Positions 2,808 to 5,137 of a stretch of 5,909 nucleotides of DNA are shown in pieces. The DNA is taken from positions 1 through 5,909 of the forward strand of contig JAFQIF010000229.1 of the NCBI GenBank assembly GCA_017397695.1, read 5' to 3'. The notes beneath the pieces are model-generated. The model ran no database searches and was not told where the DNA came from. It saw nothing but the letters and a program-made list of their open reading frames with translations. The translations under genes and the position numbers were made by a program. Positions within the stretch are counted from its first letter, which is position 1, and each line of letters opens with the position of its first letter. Source of the stretch: Clostridia bacterium. GTDB taxonomy: Bacteria > Bacillota_A > Clostridia > Christensenellales > Aristaeellaceae.

Positions 2808-2969
2808 GCGAAGCGAAGAGGGGAGTCTGAGGGGCAATGCCCCTCAGGCAGGTCTTAGGGCGGCAGCCCTAACGCAACCCATTCGCAAAGCAAAAAAGAA
2901 GCAAGAATCTCAGAGGAGCCGAAGGCGACAATTGAGATTCCGGTACAGGATCGTAAGAATCTCTGCGTG
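2808..2969 (+). repeat. Structured intergenic element, left copy (three hairpins, downstream of copA)
   Basis: This begins 14 bases after the copA stop with GCGAAGCGAAG (2808-2818). Hairpin 1 is CTGAGGGGC/GCCCCTCAG with loop AAT (2827-2847). A GCAGGTC spacer follows, then hairpin 2, TTAGGGC/GCCCTAA with loop GGCA (2855-2872). A degenerate form of the first motif, CGCAAAGCAAAAAAG, is at 2884-2898. Hairpin 3 is GAATCTCA (2905-2912) paired with TGAGATTC (2933-2940) around a 20-base loop containing AGGAGCCGAAGGCGAC. No run of T follows any stem, so these are not textbook intrinsic terminators. The same order of motifs appears inverted at 2970-3123. The outer limits are set by that similarity and are approximate. 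Confidence 0.85.
2827..2847 (+). terminator. Possible 3'-end hairpin of the copA transcript
   Basis: A perfect 9-bp, GC-rich stem with a 3-base loop starts 34 bases after the copA stop. It is the first stable structure after the gene and could terminate or protect the mRNA. It lacks the U-tract of an intrinsic terminator, so an mRNA-end or processing role is only a guess. Confidence 0.3.
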
Positions 2970-2984
2970 AACCACACAGATTCT
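2956..2984. repeat. Hairpin at the junction of the two inverted elements
   Basis: AGAATCT (2956-2962) pairs with AGATTCT (2978-2984), and GTG/CAC can add inner pairs around the loop AAC. It sits at the symmetry centre of the inverted pair. The flanks also match in inverted form: TACA...TAAGAATCT on the left, and TACA...TAGAATCT on the minus strand from the right. The similarity of the two copies therefore runs to the centre. Confidence 0.65.
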
Positions 2985-3123
2985 ATCGAAGTGTATCAGA
3001 ATCAAAAGCGTCGCTTTCGGCTCCTGTTTGATTCTTGCTTTTTCGCTTCGCGATCAGGAGAACGCTGGGCTACCGCCCAGACCTGCCTGGGGATTTCATC
3101 CCCAGAGCCCTTCTTCGCTTCGC
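2970..3123 (-). repeat. Structured intergenic element, right copy (inverted; downstream of the phosphatase gene)
   Basis: Read on the minus strand this copy repeats the left element in the same order. GCGAAGCGAAG is at 3123-3113. Hairpin 1 is CTGGGGAT/ATCCCCAG with loop GAA (3105-3087). After GCAGGT comes hairpin 2, CTGGGC/GCCCAG with loop GGTA (3080-3065). The second motif, CGCGAAGCGAAAAAG, begins at 3052. Hairpin 3 is AGAATCAAA/TTTGATTCT (3035-3027 with 3006-2998) around a 20-base loop containing AGGAGCCGAAAGCGAC. The stems differ from the left copy at paired positions, while loops and linkers are largely kept. It would lie in the 3' region of the minus-strand operon, in the same sense as that transcript. 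Confidence 0.85.
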
Positions 3124-3188
3124 GCAGTTTAAAGCTTTTGCGCTTCGGCTACGTCAGGATTGCCGCCCAGCCCCCTTCTTCGCTTCGC
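3124..3188 (-). repeat. Degenerate partial third copy of the element
   Basis: On the minus strand this starts again with GCGAAGCGAAG (3188-3178), followed by AAGGGGGCTGGGCGGC. This resembles the start of the element joined directly to the hairpin 2 region, but the pairing arm is missing (GGCAATCC instead of GGCAGCCCAG). Further on is GCCGAAGCGCAAAAGC, another weak echo of the GCGAAGC-AAAAGC motif. It ends next to the right full copy and begins 13 bases after the phosphatase stop codon. It is probably a truncated tandem copy. Confidence 0.55.
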
Positions 3189-3201
3189 GCGGTTTTACGT
3201 C

Positions 3202-4041
3202 TTAGAGATACGGAATCATATCCGCAAGCTTACCGAAGATCAGGTGCGGCTTTACATCGGAATTGGCCACAGTATCCATGTCTGCCTCGCCGGAGAGCAC
3301 AAGAATACCCGTCATGCCATGATTCACGCCCGTCGCCACATCGGTATACAGGCGGTCGCCAACCATCGCCATCTCATCAAGCTTGAAACCCGTGCGCATC
3401 AGCGCCTCATCGACGATGCCCACATACGGCTTTCCCAGGATCACGTCTGCCTTACGGCCCGTGCTCGCCTCGATAAACGCCATGATCGCGCCCATATCCG
3501 GAATAAAGCCGGTCTCCGTCGGGCAGTTGAAGTCCGGATGGGTCGCGATGTACGGCTTGCCATAGCGGATATAATCGCAGACCTTGCACATCTTCGCGTA
3601 GTCCAGCGTCGTATCAAACGCCACGATCACGTAATCCGCATCGTCCTCAGTCAGCTCCAGGCCCATAGAGATCATCTCTTCACGCAGCATCGGATTGCCC
3701 AGCAGGTAGCACTTCTTTCCCGGGAAATGCTCGAGGCAGTAATGTGCAGTCGCATGACCGGAGGACATCACATCGCGATACTCCTCCTCCACGCCCATGC
3801 GCTCCAGCTTCTTCTTATACACAGAAGCAGACTTGCTGGAATTGTTCGTCAGGAAGCGCGCCGTACGTCCGGTGCGCTTGAGCGCAGCGAGAAAATCCAG
3901 CGAGCCTTCGATCAGGTTATCGCCCAGATAGAACGTACCGTCCATATCCAGCAGGAAGCAGCGGATATTGGAAAGGCGCTCGCGGATCTGTTCATCGGTC
4001 ATGCCATCCACATACACAACCGGAGGATTCTTTTCATTCAT
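3202..4041 (-). CDS. HAD-IIA family phosphatase (NagD/4-nitrophenylphosphatase-like)
   Basis: A 279-residue cytoplasmic haloacid-dehalogenase-type phosphatase. Motif I is DMDGT (32-36, nucleophile Asp32 and acid Asp34), motif II is TNNSS (65-69), the motif III lysine is in ILGKPY (Lys204), and motif IV is GDRLYTDV (228-235). The cap domain lies between motifs II and III, as in subclass IIA, and contains FNCPTETGFIPDMGAI. Length and motif spacing are normal for NagD, AraL and YutF relatives, which hydrolyse nucleotide or sugar phosphates; the substrate cannot be told here. I chose the ATG at 4041 because GAAAGGG (4057-4051) is 9 bases ahead of it. An in-frame TTG at 4071 would overlap the preceding gene and has no better site. 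It is the third gene of the operon, 22 bases after the PiT gene, so a link to phosphate supply is inferred from context. Confidence 0.92.
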   Translation of the reverse strand: MNEKNPPVVYVDGMTDEQIRERLSNIRCFLLDMDGTFYLGDNLIEGSLDFLAALKRTGRTARFLTNNSSKSASVYKKKLERMGVEEEYRDVMSSGHATAHYCLEHFPGKKCYLLGNPMLREEMISMGLELTEDDADYVIVAFDTTLDYAKMCKVCDYIRYGKPYIATHPDFNCPTETGFIPDMGAIMAFIEASTGRKADVILGKPYVGIVDEALMRTGFKLDEMAMVGDRLYTDVATGVNHGMTGILVLSGEADMDTVANSDVKPHLIFGKLADMIPYL

Positions 4042-4063
4042 ATGTTTATACCCTTTCGTATGC

Positions 4064-5137
4064 TCATGCAAAATAACCCTGTGTCGCTGCCGCGACGAGA
4101 TACGTCATCAGGCCTGCTACCGTCGGAGAGCTTACCCAGGCCAGCGCAATGCGCTTGAGGATGCTGAAATGGATATTATCCACGCCCTTTACCAGTCCGG
4201 CTCCGATTACCGCGCCCACAACCGCCTGCGAGGTAGATACCGGAATGCCCATCCAGCTGCCCATAATGACAACCGTCAGCGCCATGCCGATGATGACCAG
4301 GAAGCCGTCGAGCTGGCTGATGGAAGCAATATTGCTGCCAACCGTCATCATGACCTTCTTGGAATACGTGAGCACTCCCACTGCAATGGCAATGCCGCCT
4401 ATGGTCGCCGTCAGTTGCGCATTGGTCAGCAGATTGGCTGCAACGCCCGTCTGGGCAAATGTCGCATCATAATACAGCGCAGTCACGTTGGCAGAGGAAT
4501 TCAGGCCGATCGAATATGAAGCAAACGCACCGGAAAGCAGGTAGCCTGCTTTGATGAACATATCATAGCCATTGAGCGAATTCAGCTTCTGCCTGAGGGA
4601 TTTGTTAACCGTCCACACAAGCGCAAATGAGATCAGGCCTGCGCCCACGGGATTGAGCACCCAGGTTGCGGCAAATTTGCCGATCTGCGGCAGATTGACC
4701 GCCAGAACTTCCGGGTCTGCATAGTTTGCATGGAACAAACCCCAGCCGATGATTGCTCCCGTAATTGATTGATTAGCCGACACAGGAAACTGAAGCCAGC
4801 TCATGAAAAATACAGTCAGGCCTGCACAGGCGAAGATGATGGCAGCCTTGAGCGCGGAATGGAAACGAATTCTTTCTTCTTCCCCCGCCTCAATTGCCTC
4901 ATATACTTCTTCTGCCGCAGCAGTCACCTTGTTGCTGATGGCCAATTCGGCCACCTTCCCGATGTTATGCTCACCGCCTGTAAACGCGCCGGTGACGACA
5001 AGAACAGCGATGATTAAAACAGCCGTGCGGTATTTGATTACGCGCGTCGCTACCGCCGTGCCAAAGGCATTGGCCGCATCATTTGTGCCCAGCGACCAAC
5101 CCATAAAGAGTCCCGCAAAAAGCAGCAAATAAATCAT
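4064..5137 (-). CDS. PiT-family inorganic phosphate permease
   Basis: A 357-residue integral membrane transporter of the PiT (PF01384) family, predicted to import inorganic phosphate with a cation. The first half carries the signature GTNDAANAFGTAVATR (17-32) and FPVSANQSITGAIIGWG (117-133). The second half carries the inverted-repeat counterpart GLNSSANVTA (211-220) and GIPVSTSQAVVGAVIGAG (297-314). A short acidic, soluble loop (about 70-95) and about ten hydrophobic segments fit the family. The second signature has Ser where most members have Asp (GANDVANA). The ATG at 5137 is preceded by AGAAAGG (5153-5147) with a 9-base spacer, embedded in the last codons of the DUF47 gene. Only 4 bases separate the genes, so they are probably translationally coupled. 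Some PiT members carry sulfate (CysP); the DUF47 partner favours phosphate. Confidence 0.92.
   Translation of the reverse strand: MIYLLLFAGLFMGWSLGTNDAANAFGTAVATRVIKYRTAVLIIAVLVVTGAFTGGEHNIGKVAELAISNKVTAAAEEVYEAIEAGEEERIRFHSALKAAIIFACAGLTVFFMSWLQFPVSANQSITGAIIGWGLFHANYADPEVLAVNLPQIGKFAATWVLNPVGAGLISFALVWTVNKSLRQKLNSLNGYDMFIKAGYLLSGAFASYSIGLNSSANVTALYYDATFAQTGVAANLLTNAQLTATIGGIAIAVGVLTYSKKVMMTVGSNIASISQLDGFLVIIGMALTVVIMGSWMGIPVSTSQAVVGAVIGAGLVKGVDNIHFSILKRIALAWVSSPTVAGLMTYLVAAATQGYFA

Follow-up and report, generated by a model that had tools for sequence, protein, structure and literature searches.

The window analysed here, a 5,909-nucleotide stretch of DNA from a Clostridia bacterium (contig JAFQIF010000229.1), holds between two convergent genes a structured repeat that we call element A. 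On the plus strand, an open reading frame (ORF) for a CopA-type P-type ATPase (274-2793, with two HMA matches) leads into the element region, and past it on the minus strand lie a HAD hydrolase gene (3202-4071), a PHO4-family phosphate transporter gene and a PhoU_div (DUF47) gene. Element A stands between the 3' ends of the ATPase ORF and the HAD hydrolase gene: its left copy begins 12 nt past the stop of the ATPase ORF, and a degenerate third copy adjoins the HAD hydrolase stop codon. The DNA seems to come from a gut bacterium that has not been cultured.

The initial annotation described at this position a structured element in two inverted copies, and our analysis confirms that observation and makes the feature slightly larger. 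The left copy and the minus-strand reading of the right copy align over nearly their full length with their modules in equal order, as had been claimed, with a local score of 95 against a mean of 17.4 and a maximum of 31 in 500 dinucleotide shuffles, and of 19 and 22 against the remaining window sequence. When the window is excluded and 25 copies from other genomes are used to build a covariance model (R3), this model recovers the left copy at 2806-2941 on the plus strand (130.7 bits, E 4.9e-37) and the right copy at 2998-3125 on the minus strand (117.8 bits, E 2.3e-33); a second model that includes the window copies (R1) scores the left copy at 130.9 bits. R3 further reports a shortened third match on the minus strand at 3147-3190 (17.2 bits, E 1.3e-4), for which R1 gives the span 3133-3190 (20.8 bits, E 8.5e-6); this degenerate copy retains a head, one hairpin remnant and a mini-hairpin remnant. 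The extent first assigned, 2808..3123, ends too early, as the third copy carries the feature to about 3190. The region as a whole folds far better than its shuffles (z -11.6 as DNA, -14.3 as RNA); on its own the left copy reaches z -6.3 and the right copy z -3.3, with 1 of 200 shuffles as good.

The left copy opens with a head mini-hairpin, CGC-GAA-GCG (2807-2815), after which come AAG and a run of G; alignment columns 2-10 of this head are invariant in 27 of 27 copies. Hairpin 1 (HP1, 2825-2849) and hairpin 2 (HP2, 2855-2872) are predicted from folding, two of five helix pairs of HP1 change on both sides, and between the two stands the linker GCAGGT (2848-2853), whose first two bases close HP1 and whose GG is invariant in the alignment. 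A second GCGAAGC-type motif (2884-2892), by sequence and survey a degenerate mini-hairpin in this copy, is followed by an A-rich stretch and by hairpin 3 (HP3, 2905-2940), whose outer stem has five of seven pairs with changes on both sides among the 27 copies. Within HP3 lie GGAG (2915-2918) and CGAC (2926-2929) around a GAA tip (2921-2923), and the long conserved loop once attributed to this hairpin is actually a short stem, the GGAG/CGAC internal motif and a tip of 3-4 nt. On the minus strand, the right copy presents HP3 (2999-3034, stem GAATCAAA / TTTGATTC), a mini-hairpin TCGC-GAA-GCGA (3043-3053; sequence and family survey), HP2 (3065-3080), HP1 (3087-3105) and the head mini-hairpin (3116-3124; sequence and alignment), the three hairpins being read from sequence and fold. 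The two tails are separated by the junction hairpin that had been proposed, 56 nt long at 2942-2997 (folding energy -15.8 kcal/mol, z -2.5; 4 of 200 shuffles fold as well), and a 55-56 nt junction recurs in four other tail-to-tail dimers (L099, L111, L112 and L113). Both tails together make a long imperfect palindrome at 2896-3043, with arms 2896-2947 and 2992-3043 that are 79% complementary over 52 nt, and this palindrome ends in a run of five T on the plus strand.

An alignment of 27 of the 29 intact copies (A1; L037 and L042 were left out) gives the family a common order of invariant head, HP1, GCAGGT-like linker, HP2, second mini-hairpin, A-rich stretch and HP3. The AAG and G run after the head pair with a C run beyond HP2, and by eye one to three G/C-rich hairpins stand between the head and the second mini-hairpin. 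The second GCGAAGC motif of the initial annotation, often GNA-looped, is itself a mini-hairpin in 36 of 66 copies, with a stem of 3-5 pairs around a GAA, GGA, GCA or AAA triloop; the script covered only these four loops, which biases its triloop count. Single-copy folds had suggested that the two GCGAAGC motifs pair with one another, an arrangement we rejected in favour of local mini-hairpins with matched stem changes in many copies. The outer stem of HP3 varies by whole pairs (GAATC..GATTC, GAACC..GGTTC and GCC..GGC types) around a nearly invariant inner part, GGAG-CC-GAA-GG-CGAC, in which we think GGAG facing CGAC can be read as a predicted G-C, G.A, A.G, G-C helix with tandem G.A pairs. Across the alignment, 97.1% of 648 cells are paired (shuffled 90.3%), 54 cells carry a double change (shuffled 17.3) and the covariation score is 0.249 (shuffled 0.120). 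At L019/L023 in genome G006, A stands in tandem as a 174-bp unit with head and HP3 repeated.

Element A belongs to an interspersed repeat family, as the initial annotation had suggested, and what that annotation placed in this genome we observe in its relatives. The nearest of them is G001, whose HAD protein is 95% identical to that of the window; in the HAD tree the window is sister to G001 (support 97/93), and since this tree is poorly resolved, with 3 of 22 inner branches starred, we make no claim of a single origin. The exact HP3 pattern occurs in 13 stretches in GTDB species genomes, all of them metagenome-assembled genomes (MAGs; Clostridia, Clostridiales and Candidatus Ventricola gallistercoris), and has no match in IMG/VR viral contigs. 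Its 16-mer core is found 7, 6, 1, 1, 4 and 12 times in six genomes, against 0 for the reversed control. Order-wide, 9 of 200 genomes match R1 at E<=1e-3, all except G001 at 41 bits or less. Family-wide, 93 of 300 genomes match at E<=1e-3 and 22 at E<=1e-15, and the latter comprise 19 of the 29 genomes of G001's genus and 3 of 271 others (G235, G244, G401), where all 29 genus genomes are taken as part of the 300. Copy numbers from the family search are floors, because about 11 candidates per genome were scored under strict filters. In 703,506 bases of related MAGs, R1 finds 173 matches (100 in G001, 57 in G006 and 16 in G005), a density that does not extrapolate to whole genomes because the stretches were chosen for holding A or B, the second element described below. 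The element was thus not confined to this locus, and its description as belonging to no named RNA family or known transposon end stood up to the searches made: it matches none of 4227 Rfam families at E<=5, and blastn against phage and plasmid records gives nothing at E<=0.01. A phage or plasmid origin was rejected on the same blastn result and on the absence of the HP3 pattern from IMG/VR. No title or abstract opening found in the open-licence PMC literature names the element, which does not prove its absence from print.

Comparison of orthologous sites reveals that A is present in some species and absent in others. Nine such sites are comparable, and at five of them one or more relatives lack A (L089/L144, L110/L090 twice, L105/L084 and L095/L118). 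At four sites an A-type copy is also found in the partner (L095/L076, L111/L096, L110/L090 and L098/L092; L095 falls in both groups), and the partner copy differs at L098/L092 and at L110/L090, where a different copy with B is seen; at the L090/L110 site the partner holds other repeat DNA. At the site shared by L111 and L096 the HP1 units differ and an A-T pair of HP2 has changed to T-A, so that to judge from the two sequences it is as if hairpins had been replaced whole. Downstream of the HAD gene, R1 matches occur at 4 of 21 genus loci (L151, L154 with two, L155 and L160), and the CopA neighbour is not always kept. The HAD-CopA locus of G289 (L154) has two inverted modules, one copy per gene end; G378 (L155) has a single, weaker copy; and in G327 (L158) the convergent genes persist around a short gap with a terminator-like hairpin (by eye) and no R1 match.

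Several smaller observations were made at these loci. Another hairpin repeat (CCTCATCC..CCACCTTCCCC..GGGGAAGG) adjoins A at shared gene ends in L151, L095, L096 and L111. A 101-bp stretch with CAACCGGCATGATGCCGGTT is present at L092 in G006 and absent at the orthologous G005 site, L098; a palindrome resembling it is present at L037 and L040, and the stretch looks like a further short mobile repeat. In the window, the ATPase ORF runs on in frame through 2570-2793 as a CopZ-like HMA domain, for which an ATG stands at 2584 with an AAGGAGG-type ribosome site before it. The same ribosome site and ATG recur in L154 and L155, and L158 is similar, so that a separate start for the CopZ-like domain within the long ATPase ORF is likely.

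Foreign DNA in the HP1 or HP2 loop of several A copies belongs to a second family, element B, which is 96 nt long and consists of ACCGGAGCC, hairpin B1, a GGAGCGTC linker and hairpin B2, the last with an internal AGGAG...CGAC motif as in HP3 of A. The window itself holds no copy of B in a search with its covariance model (R2). Exact B cores number 53, 8, 1, 15, 44 and 35 in G001-G006, and reversed cores 0. In an alignment of 40 of 73 collected copies, hand-picked to thin near-copies (A2), 98.1% of cells are paired (shuffled 85.7%), 131 cells carry a double change (shuffled 37.8), 18 of 27 pairs show double changes, and all five measures exceed every shuffle. Within the family R2 matches 96 of 300 genomes at E<=1e-3, mostly weakly; at E<=1e-14 it matches 19 of 29 genus genomes and 0 of 271 others, the best outsider being G243 at 3.6e-14.

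R2 detects 72 copies of B in the 703,506 bases of G001, G005 and G006, and 66 of these either overlap an A copy or A head or stand near one; among random intergenic segments from the same stretches the share is 43%. Sixty of the 72 follow directly after GGG or GGC, 20 lie within 40 nt of another B and 4 fall in predicted genes. The flanks of B are complementary to one another, with a mean stem of 5.31 over 71 distinct sites against 3.34 at random positions; exchanging partners among sites gives a mean of 4.73 and a maximum of 5.27, and none of 500 such shuffles reached 5.31. By eye, B also occupies the HP3 tip (L047, L062), the loop of B1 (L091, L117) and positions near the B2 tip (L096, L110, L116). 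At an orthologous site, again by eye, G004 has B looped within a third hairpin repeat, a long one, whose loop is plain in G005. This third palindromic repeat (..GCGCTGCGCTGGGCCCA..) comes after the A tail (L146, L147 and L016, in G004 and G005). A lone B2-type hairpin sits in the HP3 tip at L047, L062 and L095 of G005, which suggests that single hairpins, besides whole B, can be exchanged or inserted.

Pairwise comparison of B covered 26 of 32 copies in G001 and 20 of 27 in G006, and found 7 and 2 pairs, respectively, that are at least 97% identical; the distal flanks are unlike in eight of these nine pairs and shared in one. This result bears on the idea that A and B are ancient repeats that no longer move, and that hairpin-templated repair, slippage and gene conversion, not transposition, account for their changes. 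The module exchange at L111/L096, the tandem copies at L019 and the predominance of Watson-Crick compensation would suit such a history, as would the finding that none of four transposase or reverse transcriptase families tracks the carriers. Near-identical B copies at unrelated loci and sites lacking A altogether do not suit it, for together they need either some new insertion or many clean losses, and we regard the idea as improbable.

The principal rival to a mobile DNA element is a role at mRNA 3' ends, with A as a bidirectional terminator or end stabiliser under selection and the window copies serving both convergent genes. Gene placement was determined for 122 of the 173 R1 matches (41 bits or more), with genes predicted by a simple codon-trained caller that may be wrong in individual cases. 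Seven of the 122 fall at the edges of stretches, 4 inside predicted genes, and the other 111 are intergenic. Copies strongly avoid genes (4 of the 115 away from stretch edges are in one, against 3435 of 4000 random 90-nt segments), and the preference for gene 3' ends, which the initial annotation had wanted mapped, is moderate (104 of 111 intergenic copies, 94%, against 460 of 565 random intergenic segments, 81%). Head-first placement after a same-strand gene 3' end, at a median of 34 nt, is seen in 76 of 111 copies (random 304 of 565), and both outer window copies begin just past a stop codon; 28 of 111 are antisense, pointing at the following gene's 3' end, and 7 lack an adjacent gene 3' end. 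In same-strand gaps sense leads antisense by 42 to 28 (random 187 to 156). The head-after-stop orientation is a lead and no rule.

The one copy per gene end in G289, the T run at the end of the window palindrome and the covariation in A and B would likewise fit an RNA element. Yet a terminator scan finds nothing at HP1-HP3 and one site in all, in the left head on the minus strand, against 0.7 expected; the loop of the window palindrome exceeds the limits of that scan. At L151, L154 and L155 a terminator-like hairpin stands beside A as a separate structure (by eye), orthologous genes manage without A, strong matches keep largely within one genus, and one-sided wobble changes are scarce beside double changes (15 against 54 in A, 20 against 131 in B). 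An RNA role explains the 3' ends and the covariation and leaves the absence from orthologues, the nesting and the narrow distribution unexplained, and we consider it unlikely as the primary function. A secondary effect of A on transcript ends is possible, and the placement at 3' ends may instead reflect tolerance.

We conclude that the window probably holds two inverted copies and a remnant of a non-autonomous, interspersed DNA element, A, which resembles repetitive extragenic palindromes (REPs), bacterial interspersed mosaic elements (BIMEs) and miniature inverted-repeat transposable elements (MITEs), which is concentrated in one genus of uncultured gut Clostridia, and into whose hairpin tips B inserts. 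A is a string of hairpin modules and stands mostly beside gene 3' ends, either alone or in tail-to-tail dimers; under this proposal its modules would be gained, lost and swapped as whole units. B would enter the tips of A hairpins, of other hairpins or of B itself after a G run (GGG/GGC), and each insertion would supply fresh tips and thereby build nested hairpins. The data show the family itself, its structure, the nesting, the variable presence between species and the intergenic placement, whereas transposition, a DNA substrate and tolerance at 3' ends are inferred. Both would presumably spread by transposition, with hairpin DNA, either single-stranded on the lagging strand or extruded as a cruciform, as the substrate of a putative transposase or recombinase. 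The pointers to DNA over RNA are soft: copies in both orientations, rare wobble changes and GNA tips in A. DNA mini-hairpins of the GCGAAGC kind are stable, and the GNA triloop tips of A (22 of 27 in HP3, 11 of 27 in HP1 and 7 of 27 in HP2) fit them; this point is weakened by the tips of B1, none of which is a GNA triloop, by those of B2 (GNA in 12 of 40, CTTG commonest at 15 of 40) and by HP2, where GGCA prevails (14 of 27). More speculatively, an enzyme may place B in the tips of folded DNA after a G run, with A composites built likewise and whole hairpins swappable, a self-nesting scheme that we put forward as a tentative possibility.

Several results weigh against this interpretation. The compared genomes are different species, with flanking matches of orthologous sites about 74-92% identical, so that absence of A may be deletion. 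The B junctions show no clear target-site duplication by eye, and the margin over the partner shuffles is narrow because the sites share hairpin types. The strong covariation and the sense lead are also compatible with an RNA function, the covariation shuffles ignore relatedness, and two of the five measures for A do not clearly exceed the shuffles, namely pairs with double change (7 against 5.3, a value reached by 47 of 500 shuffles) and pair types (16, with 18.2 in shuffles). An enzyme survey covering four families compared 12 A carriers with 8 family members that lack a match to A, two of them (G211 and G213) weakly B-positive. Y1 transposase does not track A: it is found in 5 of the 12 carriers, in 3 of them broken or short, and in 4 of the 8 other genomes. 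Nor does TnpB (1 of the 12 carriers, below the cut-off, and none of the 8 others), reverse transcriptase (2 carriers, 2 others) or IS110 (no carrier; 2 others, of which one is below the cut-off), and none of these four families provides a parent transposon for A or B. TnpB/IS605, IS110 and group II or other reverse transcriptases were rejected as movers since their presence does not follow the carriers.

The classical REP system, in which repeats are the sequences of a Y1 transposase of the REP-associated tyrosine transposase (RAYT) type, deserves separate consideration. A shares with REPs its extragenic position, palindromic build and inverted dimers, the 5' end of B reads GGAG, GTAG or GAAG ahead of a hairpin, and Y1 frames that we take to be RAYT-like occur in G004 and G001. 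However, 7 of 12 carriers, all drafts, lack a Y1 match, and both RAYT-like frames adjoin a GTAGGGGAGGGGCTCTGCTCCTCCC-type palindrome, not A or B. These frames (L120, L121) lie between the same flanking genes, one with a stop, and the GTAG-footed GTAGGGGAGGGGCTCTGCTCCTCCC-type palindrome occurs beside and inside them; together they look like a separate classical REP system. Size also differs, with A at about 120-140 nt and B at about 96 nt against 20-40 bp for REPs (PMC3733652). The Y1 counts and the different palindrome beside the RAYT-like frames mean that the usual REP partner explains neither A nor B; we rejected RAYT as their mover and hold membership of such a system to be quite improbable.

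Together, these results add two repeat families, uncatalogued within the searches made, to a gut lineage in which they shape many intergenic regions. Nesting in hairpin tips offers a concrete, testable case of insertion that reads the fold of DNA over its sequence, and A and B have no common partner among Y1, TnpB, IS110 and reverse transcriptase.

Among known systems, miniature elements derived from IS200/IS605 carry two subterminal hairpins and insert after a short sequence without target duplication. B resembles them in its hairpins and in insertion after a short sequence, and differs in that Y1 is unmatched in 7 of 12 carriers and TnpB exceeds the cut-off in 0 of 12. The small dispersed repeats of cyanobacteria described by Elhai are tiny, structured and found within other repeats; compared by description, they belong to another lineage and are smaller than A and B. 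BOX has no known mover. Mutual insertion is reported among the small repeats BOX, RUP and SPRITE of Streptococcus pneumoniae; by description these differ from the present pair, in which one element enters the hairpin tips of the other after a G run with stems intact. In the literature examined we found no pair of non-coding families in which one is regularly housed in the other's hairpin tips while the stems remain intact. The insertion sequences (IS) IS1397, IS621 and ISPsy8 insert into REPs and so share with B a palindromic target, ISPsy8 at the symmetry axis of the predicted REP hairpin (PMC1525189). They are full IS with transposase genes, whereas B, at 96 nt, is too short to hold one.

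REPs themselves are described in PMC3733652 and PMC3116915 as extragenic, palindromic, arranged as inverted dimers mostly downstream of genes and present in many copies per genome. A is like the REP/BIME/REPIN and RAYT systems in all these respects, being extragenic, near gene 3' ends, palindromic, in inverted dimers and in many copies; it is unlike them in lacking a conserved GTAG or CGTC foot, in having several hairpins and in not flanking a RAYT or Y1 gene, although the drafts may be incomplete. The statement in the initial annotation that A is no REP element stands for sequence and size and fails for behaviour, which is REP/BIME-like down to possible cruciforms: size, foot and partner gene all set A outside the definition of a REP, and it has the extragenic position, 3' ends and inverted dimers of REPs and BIMEs. 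Like MITEs it is non-coding, dispersed and variably present at orthologous sites, in a comparison between species in which loss is possible. In behaviour, as described in PMC3733652, PMC3116915, PMC3049150 and PMC1525189, the nearest known systems are REP/BIME/REPIN, BOX/RUP/SPRITE and the REP-targeting IS.
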